Of a DNA stretch of 42,694 nucleotides, positions 1 through 42,694 are shown piece after piece; positions within the stretch are counted from its first letter, which is position 1; every line of letters starts with the position of its first letter. The DNA comes from Candidatus Solincola daggyaiensis (GTDB taxonomy: Bacteria; Actinomycetota; Geothermincolia; Geothermincolales; RBG-13-55-18). Made by a program: the position numbers and the translations under genes. The stretch spans positions 1-42,694 of the forward strand of contig JACVJD010000015.1 in the NCBI GenBank assembly GCA_015711825.1. Direction: 5' to 3'. The notes under the pieces were generated by a model. That model did not search any database. It was given only the letters and a program-made list of their open reading frames with translations, and had not been told where the DNA came from.

Positions 1-432
1 GAGCCCTCCAACCTGCTTTGCGCCATCGGCACCCCCATCTCCGCCCTCATAGACGCCTGCGGGGGCCTGGTGGGCAACCCCGCCAAGCTGATCATGGGCG
101 GCCCCATGACCGGCTGGGCGCAGTCGGGCACCTCCGCCTCGGTGGTCAAGGGCACCTCGGGAGTGGTGGTGCTCACCTCAGACGTGGTGGATCTGGGCGA
201 GGAATGCGAGTGCGTGCGCTGCGGCAAGTGCGTGGAGGCCTGCCCCATGTTCCTCTCCCCCAACTACATCGTGCAGTCCGCCCGCCGCGGGCAGTGGGAC
301 AAGGCGGAGATGTGGGGGGCGCTGGACTGCTTCGAGTGCGGCTGCTGCTCCTTCTCCTGCCCCGCCTACATCCCCCACGTGCAATACGTGCGCAAGGCCA
401 AGGCCGAGATCGCGGCCCTGAAGAAGAAGTAG
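1..432 (+). CDS. rnfC: RnfC, electron transport complex subunit C (C-terminal part only)
   Basis: The reading frame is open from base 1 and stops at TAG 430-432, so only the last 143 codons are here. The visible part starts in the conserved GTPIS and MGGPMTGW segments of the RnfC flavin/SLBB region. It then carries two ferredoxin-like cysteine clusters, CVRCGKCVEACP and CFECGCCSFSCP, which bind the two 4Fe-4S clusters of RnfC. In the Rnf complex RnfC is the peripheral subunit that exchanges electrons with NAD(H) and passes them to the membrane subunits, coupling ferredoxin:NAD oxidoreduction to ion translocation. Lacking a long C-terminal extension, it resembles the short RnfC of anaerobes. 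rnfD follows after 15 bp, as in rnfCDGEAB operons, but no rnfG, E, A or B follows in this window. Confidence 0.93.
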   Translation, partial: EPSNLLCAIGTPISALIDACGGLVGNPAKLIMGGPMTGWAQSGTSASVVKGTSGVVVLTSDVVDLGEECECVRCGKCVEACPMFLSPNYIVQSARRGQWDKAEMWGALDCFECGCCSFSCPAYIPHVQYVRKAKAEIAALKKK

Positions 433-447
433 AGGAGGCGATTGAGT

Positions 448-1404
448 ATGGCTCTTGCAGATAATCTGGCAGTGACCGTATCGCCGCACATCAGGGGCAA
501 GGACAAGGTCCCCAACGCCATGCGCGACGTGCTCATCGCGCTGGCGCCGGTGACCATCGTCGCCATCGTCCTTTTCCGTTGGGACGCGGTCATCAATATT
601 TTGGTGTGCGTGGCGACAGCGGCGTTGACCGAGGTGGTGGCGCGGAGTATAGCCCGTAAAAAGATCACTCTCAACGATTACTCCGCCCTGGTAACCGGCC
701 TTTTCCTGGCCTTGCTGCTGCCGCCGGCGACCAACTGGTGGGTGGGAATCATAGGCACGGTAATAGCGGTGGGTATAGCGAAAGAGCTGCTTGGAGGCCT
801 GGGGCGCAACTATTTCAACCCCGCTCTCTTTGGGCGCGTAAGCCTCATCCTGCTCAGCACCTGGTACGTGTGGATAGGCGGAGGGGGTTTCAAGGGGAGC
901 ATCAACGGCGTAAGCGGCGCCACCCCACTCTTCTACCTCAAGGAAGGCGCCATGGGGGCCAAGCCCTCCTACGGAGCCCTTTTCCTGGCCAACCCCGGAG
1001 GATCGCTCTCCGAGGTCTCGGTGCTCGCCGTGCTAATCGGCGCCGCCTACCTCTTCTACCGCGGCGTGATCAGCTGGGAGATCCCGACTTCCATCATCGT
1101 GAGCGCCTTTATACTCTCGGCCATCCTGGGCGTTGACCCGCTCTACACCATCCTCGCCGGCGGCCTGATGTTCGGAGCCTTCTTCATGGCCACGGACTGG
1201 GTGACCAGCCCGGTGAGCCGCAGCGGGCAACTGTTCTTCGGCGCCTGCATCGGCATACTGGTGGTCCTGATCAGGAAGTTCACCGCCGCCCCCGAGGGCG
1301 TCGCTTATTCCATCCTGCTCATGAACGCCTTCGTGCCCCTGCTGGACAAGGCCTTCAAGCCCAAGCCCTTCGGAGCCGTAACGGCGGCCCAGAAGGCGGC
1401 ATGA
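448..1404 (+). CDS. rnfD: RnfD, membrane subunit of the Rnf complex
   Basis: This 318-residue polytopic membrane protein belongs to the NqrB/RnfD family. The segment INGVSGATPL carries the S-G-A-T flavinylation motif, whose Thr covalently binds FMN in this family, and MATDWVTSPVS is the conserved block near the C-terminus. Hydrophobic segments alternate along the whole length, as expected for an ion-translocating subunit. An in-frame TTG lies at 442, but AGGAGG at 433-438 is 9 nt from ATG 448 and only 3 nt from the TTG, so ATG is preferred. It follows rnfC directly and probably shares its transcript. The next gene, after 34 bp, is a molybdoenzyme rather than the expected rnfG. Confidence 0.93.
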   Translation: MALADNLAVTVSPHIRGKDKVPNAMRDVLIALAPVTIVAIVLFRWDAVINILVCVATAALTEVVARSIARKKITLNDYSALVTGLFLALLLPPATNWWVGIIGTVIAVGIAKELLGGLGRNYFNPALFGRVSLILLSTWYVWIGGGGFKGSINGVSGATPLFYLKEGAMGAKPSYGALFLANPGGSLSEVSVLAVLIGAAYLFYRGVISWEIPTSIIVSAFILSAILGVDPLYTILAGGLMFGAFFMATDWVTSPVSRSGQLFFGACIGILVVLIRKFTAAPEGVAYSILLMNAFVPLLDKAFKPKPFGAVTAAQKAA

Positions 1405-1438
1405 ATGGACGGCTTACCGCTAAAAGGAGGGAATATAG

Positions 1439-3832
1439 ATGAAGCTCGATAGAAGGACTTTCCTCAAGGCGGCCGGCGCGGGAGGACTGGGGCTGGCTTT
1501 CCCCGAGATTTTCAGGCTCTCCACCTCCGCCGCTGCCGCCACCACGGGGGACCTCTTCGATGAGGAGAAATACTTTTTCTGCGGGGTGTGCGACAACGTA
1601 TGCGGCATGATCGGTCGCTACAAAGACGGTCGCATGCGGGAGATAATCGCCAACCCGGCGGATGAGCTGGGGGCCATGGGCAGCATCTGCGTCAAGGGCG
1701 AGTCGGCCATGAACACCCTCTATGACCCCGACCGCCTGAAGTACCCCATGAAGAGGACCAACCCCGAGAAGGGCATCGACGTGGATCCCGGCTGGGTGCA
1801 AATCACCTGGGACGAGGCCTTCGAGACCATCGGCAAAAAGTTCAAGGAGGCCATCGACCAGTACGGACCCCAGACCCTGCTGTACATCGGGCGCCCCAAG
1901 GAGAAGGAGAAGGCCCTGGTGCAGGCGGTGGGCACCCCCAACCAGGTCTCCCACGTGGACACCTGCTATCTCACCCATGACCTCTGCTGGAAGGTGAGCT
2001 GGGGGGCGGGCAAGTCATGGTGCATGGACCTGGACAAGGCCAAGTACATCGTCTCCTTCGGGTGGGATCAGCCCGCCAAGTCCAAGATGTACCAGCTCAA
2101 GGGGTTCCTGGCGGCCAAGGAGAACGGCGCCAAGACGGTGTTCTTCGACCCCCGCCTCTCGGTGACCGCCTCCAAGGCCGATGAGTGGATACCCATAAAG
2201 CCGGGCACCGACCTGGCGGTGGCCCTGGCCATGATCTACGTGCTCATCGAGGAGGAGCTCTACGACAAGGAGTACGTGCAGCAGATGACGGTGGGGTTCG
2301 AGCAGCTCGCCGAGCACGTGAAGAAGGAGGGCTACACCCCAGAGTGGGCGGAGAAGATCTCCGAGGTGCCGGCCCAGGACATCAGGCGCATCGCGCGGGA
2401 GTTCGGCAAGACGCGGCCGGCCATGGTCGCCCTGCACAAGCGCGACGCGGGCGGTCCCAACTACGCCAACTCCTTCCCCCTCTCCCAGGCGGAGTTCATC
2501 CTCAACGCCCTGGTGGGGGCGATAGAGAGGCCGGGCGGGCATTACATGTCCCGCATGCCCTCGCTAAAAGGGGCGGAGGAGTTCCTCATGAACCCCGAGG
2601 CCAAGTACCCCGAGATCACCGAGAAGAGGCGGGTGGACGGGCATGACAAGTACCCGCTGGCGGTGAAGATGGCCAAAGGCTTCGCCAAGGGCGATTTCAG
2701 CCACCTCGCCGACGGTATGCTCAACAATCCCCCTTACCCCGTCAAGGTGGGCATCTCCAAGGGATACGGCATCCTCGCCTTCCCCAACCAGGACACCATC
2801 ATCGAGGCGCTGAAGACCCTGGATTTCTTCGTGGCCATCGATATCCTGCCCAACGAGATGTGCATGCTGGCGGACATCGTCCTGCCCGACGAGCATTTCA
2901 TGGAGTCCAAGGGATACGAGGCCCGCGAATACCACGCCCTGTGGCCGCAGGTGGAGTTCCGCGACGGGACGGCGCTCTACGACAACAAGGGTTTCGGCCC
3001 CATAACCAACGGTATCCTCAAGGGCATGGGCCTGGGGGACTACGCGGTGTGGTGGGACGAGCAGAAGATGAAGCATTTCGAGGCCTTGGGGTATAAAGTC
3101 GAGTGCCCCGAGTACGAGGCTCTGCTCGGCGACCCCGACCCCGCCACCGGCGAGAGGAAGAGGGTGAAGAAACCCGACCAGGCGGCCCAGGACGCCCTCA
3201 AGGCGGCGGTGGAGGAGACGAGGAAGAAGATTATCAAGGAGAACAAAGGCGTCTGGCAGGACAAATCCAAGGCCGCATCGGACGGGAGGCCCAAGCCCAA
3301 ATCGGAGTTCAACACGCCGTCCAAGAAGCTCGAGCTGTTCTCCAGCGCCCTCAACGACAAGGGCTACGAGGCCCTGCCCACCTGGCATCCCAAGGAGGCG
3401 GAGCCGGACGACGAATACCCCTATTATTTCCTCACCAACCACCTTACCTGGAACCGCATGAACAGGAACGCCAACGACCCCGCCCTGCGCGAGCTGCAGC
3501 CGGAGAACTTCATCCACATGCACCCGGACACCGCGAAGAAGATCGGGGTCAAGGACAACGACTACGCCATGGTGGAGGCCAAGGGAGTGGGCAAAGCCCT
3601 CAAGATAAGGGTGCGCACGACCAAGGGAATCCGCCCCGACTGCGTGGTCACCGAGCACGGTTTCGGGCAGTGGTCCAAGGGGTATTCCGTGGCCAACAAG
3701 GGCAACGGCACCTACGACGGCGATCTCACCCCGAACCGTAAAATCGCTGAATCGCTGGAGAAGTTCAAGAAATACGACCCGGTGCAGAGCGCCCGGCAGC
3801 TCGACGTATGCGTGAAGATCACCAAGGCTTGA
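1439..3832 (+). CDS. Tat-exported molybdopterin oxidoreductase, PsrA/PhsA/ArrA-like catalytic subunit
   Basis: A 797-residue member of the DMSO reductase (complex iron-sulfur molybdoenzyme) family. The N-terminus has a twin-arginine signal, RRTFLK at residues 5-10, followed by a hydrophobic stretch and Ala-rich region, so the folded enzyme should be exported. Cys48, Cys51, Cys55 and Cys84 form the proximal 4Fe-4S site. GTPN at 165-168 followed by SHVDTC places Cys176 where polysulfide, thiosulfate and arsenate reductases carry the Mo-ligating cysteine, which argues against nitrate or formate enzymes. The C-terminal part has the molybdopterin-dinucleotide-binding barrel (YYFLTNHLTWNRMNRNAN region). 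AAAGGAGG precedes the ATG. A TorD-like chaperone follows. No Fe-S subunit B or membrane anchor C is adjacent, so its electron partner is unknown. The substrate (polysulfide, thiosulfate, arsenate or another) cannot be decided from sequence alone. Confidence 0.88.
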   Translation: MKLDRRTFLKAAGAGGLGLAFPEIFRLSTSAAAATTGDLFDEEKYFFCGVCDNVCGMIGRYKDGRMREIIANPADELGAMGSICVKGESAMNTLYDPDRLKYPMKRTNPEKGIDVDPGWVQITWDEAFETIGKKFKEAIDQYGPQTLLYIGRPKEKEKALVQAVGTPNQVSHVDTCYLTHDLCWKVSWGAGKSWCMDLDKAKYIVSFGWDQPAKSKMYQLKGFLAAKENGAKTVFFDPRLSVTASKADEWIPIKPGTDLAVALAMIYVLIEEELYDKEYVQQMTVGFEQLAEHVKKEGYTPEWAEKISEVPAQDIRRIAREFGKTRPAMVALHKRDAGGPNYANSFPLSQAEFILNALVGAIERPGGHYMSRMPSLKGAEEFLMNPEAKYPEITEKRRVDGHDKYPLAVKMAKGFAKGDFSHLADGMLNNPPYPVKVGISKGYGILAFPNQDTIIEALKTLDFFVAIDILPNEMCMLADIVLPDEHFMESKGYEAREYHALWPQVEFRDGTALYDNKGFGPITNGILKGMGLGDYAVWWDEQKMKHFEALGYKVECPEYEALLGDPDPATGERKRVKKPDQAAQDALKAAVEETRKKIIKENKGVWQDKSKAASDGRPKPKSEFNTPSKKLELFSSALNDKGYEALPTWHPKEAEPDDEYPYYFLTNHLTWNRMNRNANDPALRELQPENFIHMHPDTAKKIGVKDNDYAMVEAKGVGKALKIRVRTTKGIRPDCVVTEHGFGQWSKGYSVANKGNGTYDGDLTPNRKIAESLEKFKKYDPVQSARQLDVCVKITKA

Positions 3833-3837
3833 CGGAC

Positions 3838-4473
3838 ATGGACGAGGCGGAAAGGGGAGCGGCCTACGGGCTGCTCTCCTTCTTCTTCCTCTACCCCAAG
3901 GATAAGCACCTGGAGTACTTAGACGCGGGCGGCCTGGAGGAGCTCGCGGGGCTGTGCGCCGTCCTGGAGGTACCATGCGGCGATGCGCTGGAGGGCCTGC
4001 GCGAAAGGCTGAAGGCGGGGGAGGAGGCGAGGCCGGAGCTCCTCCTGGACCTGCAGAGGGACTACACGCGCCTTTTCATCAACGCCTTCCCCAAGATGGT
4101 GGCTCCGCCCTACAGCTCCGTCTATCTGGACGGTAAAGGAAAGGTGTGGGGGGAGAGCACCTCCTGGGTGAACAACCTCTACCACGAGGCGGGCCTGGAG
4201 ATAGCGGAGGAGTTCCACAACATACCCGACCACATAGCCGCCGAGCTCAACTTCGCGGCCTTTCTGCTCTCCGGGTCGGGGAATGAGGATGGGACGAACC
4301 TGCGGCTTTACGAGAAACTGGTGGTGGAACATCTGGCCTTATGGGCGCCCCCCTTCCTGCAGCGGGTGATCGAGGGCGCCCGGCAGCCGTTCTACGCCCT
4401 CCTGGCGAAGCTTGTCCTTCGCCTGGTGGAAGAGGAGAGAGGGAGGCTCGAGGACAGCGCGGACGGCCGGTGA
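3838..4473 (+). CDS. TorD/DmsD-family molybdoenzyme maturation chaperone
   Basis: A 211-residue, all-helical protein of the TorD family (PF02613). Diagnostic segments are the central DYTRLFINAF motif, PPYSSVYLD, and the PDHIAAELNFAAFLL block, which match the conserved E/DYxxLF and PDHIxxEL signatures. Such chaperones bind the Tat signal and apoprotein of a specific molybdoenzyme and hold it until cofactor insertion. The gene begins 5 bp after the stop of the molybdoenzyme gene, so that enzyme is its obvious client. A start at ATG 3808 is possible in frame, but it would overlap the upstream gene by 25 bp; ATG 3838 begins at the expected N-terminus. The ribosome binding site is weak, consistent with translational coupling. 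Confidence 0.88.
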   Translation: MDEAERGAAYGLLSFFFLYPKDKHLEYLDAGGLEELAGLCAVLEVPCGDALEGLRERLKAGEEARPELLLDLQRDYTRLFINAFPKMVAPPYSSVYLDGKGKVWGESTSWVNNLYHEAGLEIAEEFHNIPDHIAAELNFAAFLLSGSGNEDGTNLRLYEKLVVEHLALWAPPFLQRVIEGARQPFYALLAKLVLRLVEEERGRLEDSADGR

Positions 4474-4507: not shown

Positions 4508-5225
4508 GGCTCCCGCCTCCGTTTTGGGTCCTTGGACTCAGCCTTCTCGAGCTTAACCTTCATTGTTACGCGAAGCCCTTTCAGCCGCCGTCTCGGCCTG
4601 GGTATTGCCTCCAGGATACCGCTTGCCTAATTGCCCCTAAGTGGCCAGTATGTCGGCTGCAAACCTCCCGACGGTCGCGCTGAGACGAATCCCGGTCAAG
4701 GAACACGAGAGAGCCGACCACGCTTAAGGACGGTCGCCATGGGGTTTAAAACGGTCGTGGGATGGAGATCAGGCGCAAGAAAAAACGCCGGAAGTTCAAG
4801 ATGAGACGAATCCCGGTCATGGAACACGAGAGAACCGGCCACGCTTAAGGACGGTCGCCATGGGGTTTAAAACGGTCGTGGGATGGAGATCAGGCGCAAG
4901 AAAAAACGCCGGAAGTACAAGACCTAGGAAAGTGGGGGGATGACTCCCGACGTTTTCACTTAATTAATATATGAGAATATAATAATAAATATATAATATG
5001 TCAATGGCAGTTTGCCGCCATTTTCAAGGCTTATGGGCAATATGGGAGCTTTTCCCGCTCTTACCGGTCGTGGCGCTGATGCCGCCGCTTCTTTTCGGCC
5101 CGCGAGGGGAAAAAGCGTCTTGCTGCCAAAAGCGAAATCTTGACCCCAGGTATCCGCATGGGTTATGTTTCCCCACATGCTAATATGAAGGTGTTCTTTT
5201 CGGTGCTTTGGTGGCCCGGGAGATC
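4508..5225. other. intergenic region with a tandem repeat and an AT-rich promoter-like stretch
   Basis: No convincing gene is seen. The stretch holds the 121-bp tandem duplication at 4681-4922. After it comes a sharply AT-rich segment (about 4960-5000) with two TATAAT hexamers at 4978-4983 and 4992-4997, in otherwise GC-rich DNA. It lies about 200 bp upstream of the arsR-like gene and is probably a promoter region. A 61-codon frame from 4998 lacks a ribosome binding site and is not called. Confidence 0.5.
4681..4922. repeat. two tandem copies of a 121-bp repeat
   Basis: Copy 1 is 4681-4801 and copy 2 is 4802-4922. They differ at about four positions. Each contains the run GGTTTAAAACGG and a lysine/arginine-codon-rich segment. 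A 28-codon frame crosses the junction (ATG 4763) but has no recognisable relatives or strong ribosome binding site. The function is unknown. Confidence 0.9.
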
Positions 5226-5618
5226 ATGGAGCTTATAGGCCGGTCTGAGGGTTTGAATGAGGAGAACGAGGAGAGGATTCGCTCCTTGTTTGTGATGCTC
5301 AAAGCCCTCGCCGACATCAATAGACTCAAGATTTTGATCCTGCTGTTCGACGGAGAGAGATGCGTGTGTGATATAGAAGAGGAACTCGGGATATCCCAGC
5401 CGCTGACGTCTCACCACCTGCGCATCCTCTCCAAGGCCGGCTTGATCAAGGCGAGGAAAGAGGGGACATGGTCCTATTATTCTCTCCGAAGAGAGGGCAT
5501 AAATAAACTGAACACGTCTTTTTCGTTCCTGCTTGGACCGTACAAGATTAAGGAGGATTATCCTATGCGAGAGAGCTGCGACGATCACCTTGGTGAGGGG
5601 GTAAAGCCTATCCTGTGA
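5226..5618 (+). CDS. ArsR/SmtB-family metalloregulator with Cys-x-Cys sensor site
   Basis: A 130-residue winged-helix repressor of the ArsR/SmtB family. The core LKALADINRLKILILL leads into ERCVCDIEEEL, the alpha-3 ELCVCDL-type motif. Cys46 and Cys48 there bind As(III), Sb(III), Cd/Pb or other thiophiles in relatives. The recognition helix is SQPLTSHHLRIL, followed by the beta-wing GTWSYYSL. ATG 5226 is chosen; upstream in-frame GTG 5211 and TTG 5208 are possible, and no start has a convincing ribosome binding site. The gene heads the thiol-redox island to 10344. A palindrome at 5828-5843 before the next gene is a plausible operator. ArsR proteins normally dissociate from DNA on binding the inducer. 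Confidence 0.88.
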   Translation: MELIGRSEGLNEENEERIRSLFVMLKALADINRLKILILLFDGERCVCDIEEELGISQPLTSHHLRILSKAGLIKARKEGTWSYYSLRREGINKLNTSFSFLLGPYKIKEDYPMRESCDDHLGEGVKPIL

Positions 5619-5983
5619 GGGCATGAGCTTCTCGCCCCTTCGCTTTCAAGATGAAGGGCTCGTCGGCTCATCGCGCGCATCCGTGGTAGCGCATAAAGAT
5701 CTGCGTCCTGATTCTCCGGGGGAACCACGGCTGGAAGCTCGCCCTCCAAACATTGGTCGACGCAGTCCGAATACGCAAAGGAGACCATGAGCAGGAGGGC
5801 GCGCGGCTGGAAGCGCGCTTTATAAACATTAGTTGATGCTAATATAAATTATAATTGATATAATGACGCAGGAGCGCATCGAGTCCAGGAAAAAAGAGGA
5901 AAGGCGTTCCGTTCGGCGTGGTCGAGACCGGGTTCGATCGGGTTTAAACCAACATGAGCACGCGAAGGGCCGGGAGGAGAAAA
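5619..5983. other. intergenic control region between arsR-like and thioredoxin genes
   Basis: No sizeable gene. A diverged direct duplication is present (5729-5763 and 5805-5839, 27 of 35 identical). A 12-codon frame, ATG 5787 to TAA 5825, has a good AAAGGAG at 5777-5783 and would encode an Arg-rich peptide. An operator-like palindrome at 5828-5843 is followed by TATAAT hexamers at 5850-5855 and 5859-5864. Confidence 0.55.
5828..5864 (+). promoter_or_regulatory. candidate ArsR operator overlapping a promoter
   Basis: ATTAG (5828-5832) and CTAAT (5839-5843) form a perfect inverted repeat with a 6-nt spacer, a typical ArsR/SmtB operator geometry. It sits directly upstream of TATAAT hexamers at 5850-5855 and 5859-5864. 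The half-site string ATGCTAATAT at 5836-5845 recurs at 5177-5186, just before the regulator gene, suggesting autoregulation. Assignment to this regulator is inference. Confidence 0.5.
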
Positions 5984-6526
5984 ATGACGGAGGCGATGGT
6001 GAGGACAGCGAAAAAAGCGTCAAAGCTATTACTGGCGGCGCTGGCCGCTGTTTCCATGGTGATGCTGATAACCCTTGCCGACTGCGGGTGTGGAGAGGAG
6101 CAAAAGGTCAAGCAGGACGCGCCGGTGGAAGTGGAGCAGGAGGCGCAAAAACCAACAACCTCCTTGGCGGAGAAGAGTCCCTCGCAGCTGGCCCTTGAGA
6201 ACGCCCTTGAGGACGGCAAGCCGGTGTTCCTCAACTTTCACTCCAACCAGTGCATACCGTGCATAGAGATGGAGAAGGTCATCGGACAGGTGGAGCCGGA
6301 ATACGCGGGCCGCGTGGAGTTCGTGGTGGTGGACGTTTACGACCGCGCGGAGTTGCCGCTGTGCGATTACTTCCAGGTGAGGGTGATTCCCACCAGCTTC
6401 TTCATACGCCCTGACGGCACGGTCATCGACGCGTATGAGGGATTGATCCAGACCGACCAGATGAGGGCATTGCTCGACAAGCTGATCTCGGGAGGGGGCC
6501 AGGCGTCCCCGTCACCGCAATCGTGA
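5984..6526 (+). CDS. membrane-anchored thioredoxin-like protein (CIPC active site)
   Basis: A 180-residue exported thioredoxin-fold protein. Residues 15-32 form a hydrophobic signal/anchor followed by ADCGCG. A lipobox is possible at Cys34, but the Asp before it is unusual, so a signal anchor is as likely. After a charged linker the thioredoxin domain begins at about residue 66, with the redox pair Cys90/Cys93 (NQCIPC) and the cis-proline loop VIPTSFF. It should act on the outer face of the membrane as a reductant or thiol carrier. ATG 5984 has GGAGG 6 nt upstream at 5973-5977; ATG 5954 lacks one. The gene overlaps the next by 4 bp, pairing it with a DsbD/CcdA-like membrane protein that could keep it reduced. 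Confidence 0.85.
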   Translation: MTEAMVRTAKKASKLLLAALAAVSMVMLITLADCGCGEEQKVKQDAPVEVEQEAQKPTTSLAEKSPSQLALENALEDGKPVFLNFHSNQCIPCIEMEKVIGQVEPEYAGRVEFVVVDVYDRAELPLCDYFQVRVIPTSFFIRPDGTVIDAYEGLIQTDQMRALLDKLISGGGQASPSPQS

Positions 6527-7689
6527 AGATGAAGAGACTCTCCTACTGCGCAGCCGCGCTTGCGATAGCCATATTGCTTATTCTGCTGCCCGCGTTTTCC
6601 GGGAGCCGGGCGGCGGTCGCCGCGGGAGACGGCGCTGGAGACCAGGATTCTTCGGTCGAGTTGATATATTTCTACCCCCGCTTCAGGTGCGTTTCCTGCG
6701 AGTGGGTAGATTCCTACGCCGAGGAGGCGGCCTCCACCTACCACGGGCATGGCCGGGAGGGCGTGCCTTATACCAAACTGGCCATCGACGATCCCGCAAA
6801 CCGGGAAAGGGTGGAGAAATACGGGGTCGTGGGTTCGTCCCTCTTTGTGGTGATAAAAGGCGACAATGGAGTAGAGAGCTTCCAGGAGCTCAAGCAGGTC
6901 TGGTTCATGTGGGAGGACCGGGAGGGCTGCGTCTCCTACATCCATTCCGAGCTGGACCGTGCCATCAGCGAGGGAGCGGCCTCGGGGGAGAGCGGCATAC
7001 CGCTTGCGGGCATCCCCTTCCTGGCCGCGTTCGTCCTGGGGCTGCTCACCGCCGTTTCGCCCTGTCCCCTGGCCACCAACATCGCCGCCGTGGCCTATAT
7101 CGCCAGGGACATAGACGACCGCAGGAGGACCGTGCTCTCGGGAGCGCTCTACACCGCCGGGAGGGCGGCGACCTACGTGATCCTCGGCCTGGCCCTGGTC
7201 TATTTGGGGGCGAGCGTGGTGAACATCTCGGGGTTCCTGCGCGATTCCGCCGTATATTACCTGGGCCCCCTGCTTATCCTGGTGGCCCTGGTCATGCTGG
7301 ACGTGATCAACCTATCCTTCCTGAAAGGAGGATACGCGGCGCGTATGGGAGAGCGCATCGCGGGAAAGGGCGCCCTGGGGGCGTTCCTCCTGGGGGCGGT
7401 CTTCGCTCTTTCCTTCTGCCCCTACAGCGCCATCCTCTTCTTCGGGATGCTCATCCCGCTGGCGGTGGGGACGCCGGCGGGAGGCCTGTACATGCCGGCG
7501 CTCTACGCGGTGGGCACGGGGCTTCCGGTTTTCGTGGTAGCGCTCCTCATCGCCTTCGGCGCCGGGGCCTGGGCGGGGCACGTGGACAGGGTGCAGAAAT
7601 GGGAGAAATATATCCGCAAGGGGGCGGGGATCATATTCCTCGGAGTCGGTGGGTATTATATGGTGCTGTTGGTAAAGACGCTGTTTTGA
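6523..7689 (+). CDS. ArsF-like thioredoxin-fold domain fused to a CcdA/DsbD-like (ArsG-like) membrane domain
   Basis: A 388-residue protein in two parts. Residues 1-34 look like a signal or anchor. Residues 45-150 form a thioredoxin-like domain with YPRFRCVSC (Cys56, Cys59), recalling ArsF-family proteins. From about 165 there are six or so membrane segments with SPCPLATN and SFCPYSA, the paired Cys-Pro motifs of CcdA/DsbD electron carriers; the SPCPLATNIAAVAY run resembles ArsG-type permeases. In known ars clusters ArsF and ArsG are separate and linked to aromatic arsenicals, as far as I recall. The function may therefore be transmembrane thiol reduction, arsenical handling, or both. The GTG start overlaps the upstream stop in GTGA; ATG 6529 is an alternative. 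Confidence 0.78.
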   Translation: MKMKRLSYCAAALAIAILLILLPAFSGSRAAVAAGDGAGDQDSSVELIYFYPRFRCVSCEWVDSYAEEAASTYHGHGREGVPYTKLAIDDPANRERVEKYGVVGSSLFVVIKGDNGVESFQELKQVWFMWEDREGCVSYIHSELDRAISEGAASGESGIPLAGIPFLAAFVLGLLTAVSPCPLATNIAAVAYIARDIDDRRRTVLSGALYTAGRAATYVILGLALVYLGASVVNISGFLRDSAVYYLGPLLILVALVMLDVINLSFLKGGYAARMGERIAGKGALGAFLLGAVFALSFCPYSAILFFGMLIPLAVGTPAGGLYMPALYAVGTGLPVFVVALLIAFGAGAWAGHVDRVQKWEKYIRKGAGIIFLGVGGYYMVLLVKTLF

Positions 7690-7723
7690 TATTGACGCCG
7701 TTTACGGAAAGGAAGTGGTGGGC

Positions 7724-8083
7724 ATGGCGGCGCCGAAGAGAATCGAGTTCTTCATTCCGGCGCCCTCCTGCGCCTGCTCGGGAGCCGCCTTTCTAAAGGA
7801 CCAGGAGAAGCTCTCCCGCATGCTCGCTCTCATGGGGGAGCTGGAGAAGAGGTTCCCCGGCGCGGAGCTGGTGCGTCACGACATGGTGGAAGAGAGCGCT
7901 TATGCGGACAACCTCAAGGCGCTTGCCCGCTACCTGCGCGAGGCCGGCGAGGAGGAGTTCGCCTCGCGCATCGCCTTCTCGCTCAAGTTCGTCCTTCCCG
8001 CGGTGGCCGTGGAAGGCAAGCTGGTGGCCTACGGCAAGGTGCCCGATACGGACGAGGTGGTGGCCGCCACGGGCGCGGCCTAG
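7724..8083 (+). CDS. small ArsD-like/thioredoxin-fold protein with a Cys-Ala-Cys site
   Basis: A 119-residue cytoplasmic protein without signal or membrane segments. The N-terminal strand IEFFIPAP is followed by SCACSG, a Cys-x-Cys metal- or thiol-binding site in the position where ArsD metallochaperones carry their cysteines. The C-terminal segment LPAVAVEGKLVAYGKVP strongly recalls the end of ArsD and of thioredoxin-fold proteins (a strand, VDGK turn, then GRYP). It could deliver metalloid to a partner or act as a redox carrier; no ArsA ATPase is present. ATG 7724 has AAAGGAA about 9 nt upstream; GTG 7715/7718 are in frame but too close to it. It sits 34 bp after the CcdA-like gene and 15 bp before the DUF3343 gene. 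Confidence 0.6.
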   Translation: MAAPKRIEFFIPAPSCACSGAAFLKDQEKLSRMLALMGELEKRFPGAELVRHDMVEESAYADNLKALARYLREAGEEEFASRIAFSLKFVLPAVAVEGKLVAYGKVPDTDEVVAATGAA

Positions 8084-8098: not shown

Positions 8099-9154
8099 TT
8101 GGAAGAGGTCCTGGTATTCCCCTCCACCTATCACATGTTGCGCAGCGAGGAGTTACTCAAGCGCAGGGGGTACGGCTTTCGCCTCGTGCCGGCGCCCCCC
8201 CAGGCGGGTGAGCGCTGCACCACCGCCATCGCGGTGCCGTCCCGCGTCCGGGAGGAGGTCACGCGCTATCTCGAGGGGGAGAAGATCGTCATCATCGCCG
8301 TGCTTCCCTACGAGGACCGCCTCGAGCGCTCCCTGGCTGAAGCCATCGGGAAGGCGCCGGAGACGACCCCCTCGCCGTCACTGGGGCGGTTGCTCGGCGC
8401 GTTGCGCGCGGGAAAGCGGCTCGAAGCGGGCGAGATAGCGGAGCTGCTCGCCCTGGCGGAGGGCGGGGAGGGAGGCGCCGCCTTGGAGGCCGCCGAGGCG
8501 GCAGCGCGGCGGTATTTCGGCGACCGGGTGACGGCTCTGGTGGCGATGGAGCTGAAGGCTGAGAGCGGCGAGGCGCTCGGCCTCCGCGAGGTGGCGGAGG
8601 TGGCGGAGGAGATGGGACGCCTGGGGTTAGTGCATCTCCTGCTTGACCTGGGCGATATGGTAGAGGTTCGATGGAGTGTTGAGGAGCTCAAGGGAGCTCT
8701 GGGTGGGGGCATCATCGCCCTGATGTCGGCGCCGTCCCTCGCCGCGCGAGCGGGAGAGCTGGTGCGGGAGGGGGCGGTGAGGCAGTTCCTGGTCCGTCGC
8801 GGAGGCGTCTTTTCGTCCAGCCTTGCGGAGCTGGCGGAGGAGATCTCTTTCCTGAGGGATAACCGTCTCGGGCCCTTGGGGAGCGGCAACCTGGTGCCCC
8901 TTCTTAGCCGGGACACGCAAGGAGTGGAAGGCGGAGGGATACGCCGCTTGAGGGCGGTCCTCGCGGCCTGCCGCCTGGTCCTGGGCGACGCTTTCCTCCC
9001 CGCTCCGGAACCGCTGTGGCGTGAGGGCGGGCTGGCGGGGGCGAACATGCCGGTGCTGGAAGCCGGCGCAATGCCGCTATCCATGGTGGCCGCGGAGGCC
9101 GAAGGCCGCCTGCGGGAGATGGGGCTGTCTCTTGTCAGGGTAAGCCGAGGGTAA
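8099..9154 (+). CDS. DUF3343 domain fused to a cysteine-less HydE/BioB-like barrel
   Basis: A 351-residue fusion. Residues 1-75 match DUF3343, described as a putative Se/S carrier-like domain (FPSTYHMLRSEELLKRRGY, then PAPP and GERCTT with Cys40). Residues 92-345 can be aligned by eye with the radical SAM protein HydE: an N-terminal helical lead (AAARRYFGDRVTALVAMEL), LREVAEVAEEMGRLGL, the LAACRLVLGDAFLPA segment, and EAGAMPLSM where HydE/BioB have a GAN motif. The Cx3Cx2C motif expected after VAMEL is replaced by KAESGEALGL, and only two cysteines exist in the whole protein. This would be a non-catalytic relative. The TTG start has GGGAGAGG 3 nt upstream. The function is unknown; the context suggests sulfur, selenium or arsenic thiol chemistry. 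Confidence 0.72.
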   Translation: MEEVLVFPSTYHMLRSEELLKRRGYGFRLVPAPPQAGERCTTAIAVPSRVREEVTRYLEGEKIVIIAVLPYEDRLERSLAEAIGKAPETTPSPSLGRLLGALRAGKRLEAGEIAELLALAEGGEGGAALEAAEAAARRYFGDRVTALVAMELKAESGEALGLREVAEVAEEMGRLGLVHLLLDLGDMVEVRWSVEELKGALGGGIIALMSAPSLAARAGELVREGAVRQFLVRRGGVFSSSLAELAEEISFLRDNRLGPLGSGNLVPLLSRDTQGVEGGGIRRLRAVLAACRLVLGDAFLPAPEPLWREGGLAGANMPVLEAGAMPLSMVAAEAEGRLREMGLSLVRVSRG

Positions 9155-9198: not shown

Positions 9199-9801
9199 AT
9201 GAGGGAGATGCTACTGAAGAGGATTGATATCGAACACGTGGAGCCCTGCTTTGCCGACGAGTCGAAGATAAGGCTCATCGCCCGCATCCCCGTGGACGTG
9301 AGCGAGCTCATGCCCTATCTCAACGCCGTCTTGGCCAACGCCTCCTATGTGGGAGAACGCAGCGATGCCGGGGAGGAGCGGGGCGGAACCGCGTCAGCCG
9401 CCGTCGGCGGGGGGGACCGGCCCGCTCTCACCTTCACCAAGGGAGCTCGACTGGTCACCGTCTATCCCCGCAAGGTGACCATCGCCAAGGCGGACGATAT
9501 CGCCGACGCCGAGGAGACCCTGGCCTGGCTGTGCGAGAAGATCAACCACGTGCACGAGCGGCGGAACGAGATCACGCCGGTGTACGAGGGCAAGATAAGG
9601 ATAAAGCCCCTGGACATATACGGGCTGCTGCCCCAGACCAACTGCCGCGAGTGCGGCGAGCAGAGCTGCCTGGCCTTCGCTTTATTGCTCTTGCAAGAAA
9701 AGCACCCACTTGCCGACTGCGGCCCCATGGTAAGAGAGGAGAAGTACGCCGACAAACTACGGCGCCTGCGAGAGGTCCTCGACGCCCTCGGTCTCTCCTA
9801 A
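9199..9801 (+). CDS. Fe-S cluster (PF04060-type) protein of the redox island
   Basis: A 200-residue protein. The C-terminal third contains LLPQTNCRECGEQSC, then LAFALLLL and LADCGP, matching the four-cysteine Fe-S domain found in RnfB, CFeSP and related proteins (consensus NCxxCGxxxCxxFA...C). The N-terminal 100 residues (ARIPVDVSELMPYLNAVL ... LVTVYPRKVTIAKADD) resemble stand-alone Fe-S proteins of anaerobes, with a variable Gly/Ala-rich insert at about 53-72. It has no signal peptide and so is cytoplasmic. It may pass electrons to the neighbouring thiol proteins. ATG 9199 is taken; ATG 9208 is also possible, as neither has a good ribosome binding site. Confidence 0.78.
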   Translation: MREMLLKRIDIEHVEPCFADESKIRLIARIPVDVSELMPYLNAVLANASYVGERSDAGEERGGTASAAVGGGDRPALTFTKGARLVTVYPRKVTIAKADDIADAEETLAWLCEKINHVHERRNEITPVYEGKIRIKPLDIYGLLPQTNCRECGEQSCLAFALLLLQEKHPLADCGPMVREEKYADKLRRLREVLDALGLS

Positions 9802-10101
9802 GGGGGCCAAAGCTAGGACCGTTGATCGAGCCGTTCCGGGCGCTGTTGACGGAGGGGAGGGAAAACCGGCCGGCGTCAAGGCCATCGGCGTTAGCGCATT
9901 TTAGGAGAGGTCGGACCCGGGCTGGGGATCGGGGGACTCGCCGAGGCTCGAGCTCCCGACCAGCTCTCGGAGATCGAAGGGGGTGTTCTGGGGCCAGGCA
10001 CGGACTTAATGGTTGAGATCGGTAAAGGCACGGGGATTCAGGGCTTCTCCGGTGGCCCGGACATGAAAAGAGGCTCGACCCCTATGTCTGGAGGTGAGGA
10101 T
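9802..10101. other. intergenic gap within the redox island
   Basis: No gene is supported here. It contains one copy of the 34-bp dispersed repeat (10058-10091) and, at its end, the ribosome binding site GGAGGTGA at 10090-10097 of the next gene, so the repeat runs into that site. Confidence 0.55.
10058..10091 (-). repeat. 34-bp dispersed repeat, copy 1 (minus orientation)
   Basis: The reverse complement of this segment is identical over 34 bp to 24914-24947 and 26126-26159. Its ends, CCAGACATA and CATGTCCGG, are imperfect inverted repeats, so it may fold. Here it abuts the ribosome binding site of the thioredoxin gene at 10102. Confidence 0.9.
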
Positions 10102-10344
10102 ATGGAGATCGAGGTCGTAGGGCCGGGATGCCCGTTCTGCCGCAAACTCTACCAGAGAACCAGGGAGGTGGTGGAGGAGAGGGGAATAGACGCCGAGGTC
10201 AGGCACGTCACCGACCTCAAGACGGCCTTGAGATACTTCCCCATGACCCCGGTGCTCATGGTGGACGGCCGGGTGGTGCACCGCGGCAAGCGCTTGCCCA
10301 AGAAAGACAAGATCGCCGGGCTCATCGGCGGGGACGCAGGTTAG
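10102..10344 (+). CDS. small thioredoxin/glutaredoxin-like protein (CPFC)
   Basis: An 80-residue thioredoxin-fold protein of the redox-active disulfide protein 2 type. GPGCPFCRKL carries the Cys-x-x-Cys pair at residues 10 and 13, FPMTPVLMVDGRVVHRGK is the cis-Pro loop and last strand, and a Lys-rich helix ends the protein. It is cytoplasmic and probably reduces disulfides or receives electrons from a flavoprotein elsewhere. The start ATG 10102 is set by GGAGGTGA at 10090-10097; a longer frame from 10009 would translate the dispersed repeat and has no ribosome binding site. It is the last gene of the plus-strand redox island. Confidence 0.85.
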   Translation: MEIEVVGPGCPFCRKLYQRTREVVEERGIDAEVRHVTDLKTALRYFPMTPVLMVDGRVVHRGKRLPKKDKIAGLIGGDAG

Positions 10345-41306: not shown

Positions 41307-42694
41307 GTGTCAGTCAATTACCCTTATGCCGAAATACGCAATACCAGTTTAATGAAGAATGGTGACAAAAGCAGTGGTCTAGTCTATTAGGTTTATGCCG
41401 GCTTATGCGACTCATTTCCCCGATGTTTGGACAAATGAGTTTCCTGGCGTGTCAGTTGATCAGGTTTATGCCGGCTTATGCGACTAGGGCTCCACCTTTT
41501 CTAAGACGCGCCCAAGAAGTGTCAGTTGATCAGGTTTATGCCGGCTTATGCGACCGCGACCTATTATATTACCTATCGTTATATCGACGCGTGTCAGTTG
41601 ATCAGGTTTATGCCGGCTTATGCGACGAGGAGCTGCCTGTTGACGAGCTCTTGCGCTCGGTGTGTCAGTTGATCAGGTTTATGCCGGCTTATGCGACCCA
41701 AAAAGATAATCTAATATAATACTGCCAGTATTTGTGTCAGTTGATCAGGTTTATGCCGGCTTATGCGACTTTTTGCGCATGGTGCGCGAGCTGAAGCCTC
41801 GGGCAGTGTCAGTTGATTAGGTTTATGCCGGCTTATGCGACGACTAGGGGAAAGGGGGGTGATGGTGTGAGTTTACTCCCGTGTCAGTTGATTAGGTTTA
41901 TGCCGGCTTATGCGACCTAGTCGCTGATTACGTGGTGAATGAGCTAGGGAAGTGTCAGTTGATTAGGTTTATGCCGGCTTATGCGACGCGGCCTTCGAGG
42001 ATTGCCTCAATCTCATCGAGCTGTGTCAGTTGATTAGGTTTATGCCGGCTTATGCGACGGGGGTGGGGGAAGCCGCGCGATGGCCCTCTGTGTTGTGTCA
42101 GTTGATTAGGTTTATGCCGGCTTATGCGACGCGGGCTCAGGGCTGATAACCCTGGGCCTCGCTCTGTGTCAGTTGATTAGGTTTATGCCGGCTTATGCGA
42201 CACTATGCCGTGAACATCTATGTCGTGCCCATCGTGTGTCAGTTGATTAGGTTTATGCCGGCTTATGCGACGACAACGGATTCCTCAAATTCCAATCGAC
42301 ACTCAAGTGTCAGTTGATTAGGTTTATGCCGGCTTATGCGACGCAGGTTGGGCATCTCCGCGTTCTCGTATTGGAGGTGTCAGTTGATTAGGTTTATGCC
42401 GGCTTATGCGACGTACCAAGATAGCCAGAGAGGGCACATGGACGTACATGTGTCAGTTGATTAGGTTTATGCCGGCTTATGCGACCAGATATTCAAGCCC
42501 GGCAATGGTAGGGATATGGTGTGTCAGTTGATTAGGTTTATGCCGGCTTATGCGACGGCACGGAAGCCACCATCTCCGGCGGTTCCACCCGTGTCAGTTG
42601 ATTAGGTTTATGCCGGCTTATGCGACATGAGATGTGGGTCATCGCCCGCAAGCAGATTAAGGTGTCAGTTGATTAGGTTTATGCCGGCTTATGC
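41307..42694 (-). CRISPR. CRISPR array, distal end, 36-bp repeats, continues past the window
   Basis: Eighteen near-identical repeats start at 41449, 41519, 41591, 41662, 41734, 41806, 41881, 41952, 42023, 42095, 42166, 42236, 42307, 42377, 42450, 42521, 42591 and 42662 (last cut at the window end). As written on the plus strand each is 36 bp, starting GTGTCAGTTGAT and ending GGCTTATGCGAC. Two decayed units precede them in register: 41376-41411 and 41307-41342. Spacers are 34-39 bp, except 33 bp between the two decayed units. Position 13 is C in the five units 41449-41769 and T in the rest. Decay at the left end suggests this is the trailer, so the leader and cas genes should lie to the right and transcription would run on the minus strand. 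No cas gene is in the window; repeat length and spacer size fit type I or III best, but the type is undetermined. Confidence 0.97.

Follow-up and report, generated by a model that had tools for sequence, protein, structure and literature searches.

In Candidatus Solincola daggyaiensis, an arsenic-resistance operon contains a gene for a DUF3343 domain fused to a barrel of the HydE type that has lost its radical-SAM active site. The operon lies within the 42,694 nucleotides of DNA analysed here (the window). It seems that an existing enzyme fold was put to a new use here, probably in arsenic handling. The explanation that we favour, tentatively and with somewhat less than even confidence, is that the protein is an accessory of the arsenic operon and that, in the cytoplasm, it serves an ArsD-type chaperone as thiol partner where ArsA is absent. 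The initial annotation had described this reading frame as a DUF3343 domain joined to a HydE-like barrel, and Pfam, profile searches, an AlphaFold2 model and Foldseek all agree with that description (Table 1).

Table 1. Features of the fusion gene and of the surrounding arsenic operon, in window coordinates.
Feature	Position	Strand	Basis
ArsR/SmtB-type regulator	5208..5618	+	NF033788, 96.5 bits (cut-off 55)
Thioredoxin-like protein, probable lipoprotein	5954..6526	+	PF13098, PF00085
ArsF-ArsG fusion: ArsF-like domain and DsbD_2/ArsG membrane domain	6523..7689	+	NF040495, 261 bits (cut-off 200); NF040494, 56 bits (cut-off 60)
ArsD-type thioredoxin-fold protein, invariant CxCxG (Cys19, Cys21)	7715..8083	+	Profile, Foldseek, alignment
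DUF3343/pseudo-HydE fusion protein, 351 aa, TTG start	8099..9154	+	Open reading frame, 7 full-length homologues, model
DUF3343 (PF11823 Se_S_carrier), residues 4-68	8108..8302	+	Pfam, 54.5 bits (cut-off 25)
HydE-type barrel without cluster site, residues about 93-345	8375..9133	+	Profile matches to HydE, Foldseek, colinear hhalign
Residues 153-162, KAESGEALGL, where HydE has CxxxCxxC	8555..8584	+	Alignments, frame check
Point where HydE alpha4-beta5 with GIMVGxPGQT is missing, residues about 234-239	8798..8815	+	Alignments with HydE
Best-conserved barrel region, residues 251-303, with FLRDNRxGPxGSGNLxPL and RLVLxxAFLPxP	8849..9007	+	Alignments, dN/dS
[4Fe-4S]-type protein, PF04060 FeS at residues 144-175	9199..9801	+	Pfam; fused to DUF3343 in G029
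Small ArsE/MTH895-family thioredoxin	10009..10344	+	TIGR00412, 67.5 bits (cut-off 62)

The fusion gene ends with a stop codon at 9152-9154, and its third-codon-position GC content is high and matches that of the neighbouring genes. PF11823 is matched above the curated cut-off in all eight members of the fusion family, whose alignment columns carry the DUF3343 motifs FPSTxHML and GxxCTTAIA. The cysteine count agrees with the two that had been claimed, Cys40 and one other, which is Cys291; Cys40 (8216-8218) is invariant in the family, and no other cysteine is common to all members. Stand-alone DUF3343 proteins share the domain and the conserved cysteine, but they normally comprise 80-100 aa and carry C-G, whereas the present copy is fused, carries C-T and lies in an ars operon. 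Residues past the DUF3343 domain match no Pfam or NCBIfam family.

The relationship of these residues to HydE emerges from profiles and structure. The single sequence gave no match when the PDB was searched with phmmer. When a profile of the eight family sequences was compared with all PDB chains, the best eight matches were HydE (E 0.004-0.007) and the ninth was PylB (0.12), and the HydE match was reproduced with the C-terminal domain alone. The matched segments are colinear (query 97-156 with HydE 15-75, and query 252-314 with HydE 217-280). The AlphaFold2 model, built from the eight-sequence alignment (pLDDT 85.3, pTM 0.77), retrieved Thermotoga maritima HydE at ranks 1-9 among 350,542 PDB chains in Foldseek (E 6.6e-7 to 4.3e-6, prob 1.00), with TM values of 0.48-0.56, of which those near 0.5 are moderate. 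Only related radical-SAM enzymes followed, namely ThiH, MqnE, BioB, HydG and PylB, to an E value of about 1e-4. Because HydE leads both the profile and the Foldseek matches, the C-terminal domain is a HydE-type barrel; it falls within the fold of HydE and the radical SAM superfamily, and the proposed kinship with HydE and BioB holds. Alignment by hhalign with three Actinomycetota HydE-like sequences was likewise colinear over 221 columns (E 0.0038), with a probability of 9% because both profiles are thin, and it served for gap positions only. A resident HydE that could be the direct source of the barrel was not found above cut-off in the 31 genomes of the class.

Compared with its closest structural relative, the T. 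maritima [FeFe]-hydrogenase maturase HydE (PDB 3ciw/5few, TIGR03956), the fusion protein has the same order of secondary structure, the same N-terminal lead helices and the same colinear blocks, but it lacks the cluster cysteines, the GED motif and alpha4-beta5, has DUF3343 in front and resides in an arsenic operon. Barrels of the PylB, BioB and ThiH families belong to the same radical-SAM group and are the next-best but weaker matches; unlike them, the fusion protein has no cysteine motif. No fusion-family member matches PF04055 (Radical_SAM) or TIGR03956 above cut-off in Pfam and NCBIfam, and in this sense the earlier claim that the protein has no described counterpart stands within the libraries searched.

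The catalytic site has been lost in several places. KAESGEALGL occupies the position of CxxxCxxC, as had been noted, and among homologues this loop varies in length from 0 to about 20 residues, with the cysteine motif in none. The SAM-binding GGE/GED motif after beta-2 is replaced in the alignments by LxLGxxxxL without a conserved E. Further, the beta-5 GxIxG segment is absent from all family members, and the barrel is shortened by about 45 HydE residues around alpha4-beta5, beta-5 included. The initial annotation had raised the possibility that intact cysteines lie in another frame of the homologues; a frameshift hiding them was rejected, since CxxxCxxC occurs in no forward frame of the fusion gene or of its seven homologues. 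An apparent in-frame TGA in G027, which lies past the homologous stretch at the extreme end of a contig, was not taken for a selenocysteine codon. The HydE-type fold would suit a working radical-SAM enzyme, with cysteines concealed by a frameshift or a cluster bound otherwise, but the probability of this is practically nil, given eight genes without the motif, the additional loss of the GED and beta-5 motifs, and a sole conserved cysteine that belongs to the other domain.

The search for homologues returned the same fusion in seven other genomes (35-49% identity, full-length or nearly so, one meeting a contig end) together with one shortened form, and chance is excluded because this architecture recurs at such divergence. 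All hosts, a small clade of uncultured bacteria, belong to the same Actinomycetota order, Geothermincolales, and include Solincola, Geothermincola and other Actinomycetota MAGs. A profile search of 396 Actinomycetota genomes found no full-length relatives beyond this order, and no relatives were found among plasmids, viral contigs and PHROGs. The genome-wide scan, by which relatives outside the Actinomycetota were sought, used two strict DUF3343 patterns, which barrel-only relatives there would escape. The known occurrence of the fusion protein is this one order.

Selection was estimated as dN/dS by the Nei-Gojobori method within one genus (G025, G026 and G027). The values are rough, since divergence at synonymous sites is fairly high (dS mostly 0.6-1.9): 0.18-0.28 for DUF3343, 0.29-0.38 for the middle of the protein with the front half of the barrel, and 0.11-0.19 for the barrel's late part, compared with 0.08-0.17 for the ArsD-like gene, 0.10-0.12 for the Fe-S protein and 0.04-0.09 for Acr3. 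All parts of the fusion protein are under purifying selection, which is strongest within the barrel in its late part. There, the two most conserved blocks (Table 1) are the counterparts, in the alignments, of HydE GIGPFIPHPxTP and IPATTAL. Judging from these sequences, the barrel is a functional pseudoenzyme, neither a sequencing error nor a decaying domain. It might instead be an evolutionary remnant that is being lost while DUF3343 alone matters, as the weakly conserved front half (mean identity 35%, with the highest dN/dS in that one genus) and the deletion of the barrel in one genome would suggest; its retention with invariant residues in eight of nine genomes and the low dN/dS of its late part make this quite improbable.

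The deletion concerns a member of the same genus (G029), in which the barrel has been removed in frame and DUF3343 with its linker has been joined to the Fe-S protein in an open frame of 294 residues (L025 9324-10193). The natural fusion is evidence for a joint function of DUF3343 and the Fe-S protein, and the deletion shows that the barrel is dispensable at least in this genome.

Of all the evidence, the arsenic operon, which the initial annotation had missed, tells the most about function. The fusion gene follows the genes for ArsR, a thioredoxin lipoprotein, ArsF-ArsG and the ArsD-like protein and precedes those for the Fe-S protein and the ArsE-like thioredoxin, and its location in an ars gene run is conserved across species. 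Acr3 belongs to the same run in six relatives (TIGR00832, 402-405 bits for the two scanned), and several relatives have ArsC, an ArsP-type permease and a DGC-domain protein nearby. ArsE-like, ArsF-like and ArsG-like genes are all present, as in the ArsEFG system reportedly described by Chen, Zhang and Rosen in 2019 (cited in PMC9144182); the three genes that give this system its name include neither the DUF3343-barrel protein nor the Fe-S protein. Both the operon content and the genes recurring in relatives count in favour of the thiol-partner role.

Several other features were observed around these genes. At 70-4473, a short way upstream of the arsenic operon, the end of RnfC, RnfD, a PhsA-like molybdopterin oxidoreductase and a TorD-like chaperone lie in a row, and the oxidoreductase has a weaker similarity to ArrA. 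Between the TorD-like gene and ArsR (about 4680-4925) there are two head-to-tail copies of about 120 bases (gatgagacgaatcccggtca...), and a short open reading frame at 41405-41719 contains repeated SVDQVYAGLCDRD-like units. In addition, a second cassette of ArsR, a paralogue of the Fe-S protein and an ArsE-like thioredoxin recurs among relatives (L022 12939-16502, L024 11707-13067 and L025 3432-6904), to which L022 and L025 add an ArsP/SO_0444-type permease and a DGC-domain protein.

A gap of 15 bases separates the ArsD-like gene from the fusion gene downstream. Its family profile retrieves ArsD (3ktb) first from the PDB (E 2.7e-4), and Foldseek ranks 1-7 for its model are all ArsD, so that the protein has the ArsD fold. 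Cys19 and Cys21 are invariant across the 13 ArsD-like sequences aligned. It shares fold and operon type with ArsD (PDB 3ktb, 3kgk), but it differs in scoring below the NCBIfam ArsD cut-off (16 bits vs 90), in carrying CxC only, and in the company it keeps. ArsA is the known client of the metallochaperone ArsD, and ArsA was not found in eight of the nine fusion-gene genomes, which are mostly metagenome assemblies; therefore, the ArsD-like protein there is without its textbook client. Such absences (ArsA, Acr3, SelD) are approximate because of this origin of most of the genomes.

The nine genomes with the fusion gene or its truncated form, and no others, carry a close ArsD-like orthologue (at least 56% identity). 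Four outgroup genomes have a more distant ArsD-like gene adjoining Acr3 and no fusion gene; hence an Acr3-ArsD core already existed when this clade acquired the fusion gene. In outgroup genomes, Acr3/ArsD-like genes are accompanied by an MtrA-like protein (PF04208, tetrahydromethanopterin S-methyltransferase A; L118 2963-4521, L119 10178-10873 and L120 6125-6826), and in L118 an ArsM-like methyltransferase adjoins the MtrA-like gene.

The co-occurrence in nine genomes, the outgroups without the fusion gene, the missing ArsA, the universal conservation of Cys40 alone among the cysteines, the purifying selection on every part and the natural fusion in G029 all argue for a thiol partner of the ArsD-type chaperone. 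Arsenic binding, the chemistry of Cys40, the partner role and a ligand are what we infer for the protein. Trivalent arsenic, or its adduct with a thiol, would be handed on or held jointly by the CxC pair of the chaperone and Cys40, while the barrel may hold a small ligand or dock partner proteins. The Fe-S protein and the thioredoxins could act as electron donors or maintain thiols in the reduced state until efflux, which would finally proceed through Acr3 or ArsG. Other points count against this role. Pfam ties DUF3343 to Se/S rather than arsenic, a single cysteine alone is a weak As(III) site, and the outgroup ArsD-type protein works beside Acr3 without the fusion protein. Further, G029 does without the barrel, and G015 keeps the fusion gene with ArsA present and Acr3 absent. 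A stronger version, in which the cluster-stripped barrel was recruited as an arsenic-thiol carrier or receiver replacing the ATPase ArsA, with Cys40 contributing the third thiol to an As(III) site formed between proteins, is in our view rather unlikely.

The main rival is carriage of sulfur (as persulfide) or selenium within the arsenic response, with the barrel as a docking scaffold; Cys40 would deliver S0/Se0 or sulfide, with the Fe-S protein or arsenic as the recipient, in thioarsenic chemistry or cluster repair. DUF3343, with its conserved cysteine, has been proposed to traffic Se/S, as a prediction only (PMC5322559). The invariant Cys40, the adjoining Fe-S protein that is fused in G029, and a selD family match above cut-off in the same genome are in line with such a role. 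However, the Se/S label on this domain comes from the Pfam name, the canonical C-G motif has become C-T, and the operon has no cysteine desulfurase, SelD or YedF. Moreover, a second, canonical stand-alone DUF3343 with C-G is encoded elsewhere in the genome (L125 7069-7311, G000:C10) and has a BcrAD-type activase and a class-V aminotransferase nearby, the kind of selenium-cluster context described for DUF3343 (PMC5322559), and G015 has the fusion gene but no SelD match above cut-off (MAG 82% complete). Since C-T takes the place of C-G in the fusion copy, and this copy is surrounded by arsenic genes, an arsenic-thiol role is favoured, and we regard Se/S carriage as possible but doubtful. The selD matches in most genomes of the class contain one in-frame TGA (G000:C70:10011-10934 and homologues), which suggests a selenocysteine-containing SelD.

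The scaffold or carrier role that the initial annotation had envisaged for the pseudoenzyme is compatible with the data. A redox or regulatory variant, with the barrel sensing a small thiol or metalloid ligand and the complex gating electrons to arsenical reduction, would draw on the Fe-S protein and the several thioredoxins of the operon and on the late barrel half, which is best conserved, as a retained ligand pocket would be. It is an unlikely reading, as it has no known ligand, no catalytic reductase was identified beside the fusion gene, and G029 has dropped the barrel.

Radical-SAM enzymes are among the largest enzyme superfamilies. Our literature search found no reuse of a cluster-less radical-SAM barrel in the HydE branch, and no paper that mentions DUF3343 together with arsenic. 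The reuse of the barrel is directly testable because the loss is fixed throughout the order, selection acts on it, and it is linked to arsenic genes. The fusion gene gives DUF3343, a domain of unproven function, its first firm arsenic context, and the fusion protein offers a candidate explanation for the role of an ArsD-type protein in genomes without ArsA. If the barrel does stand in for ArsA, this would be an undescribed arsenic-handling route in anaerobes.
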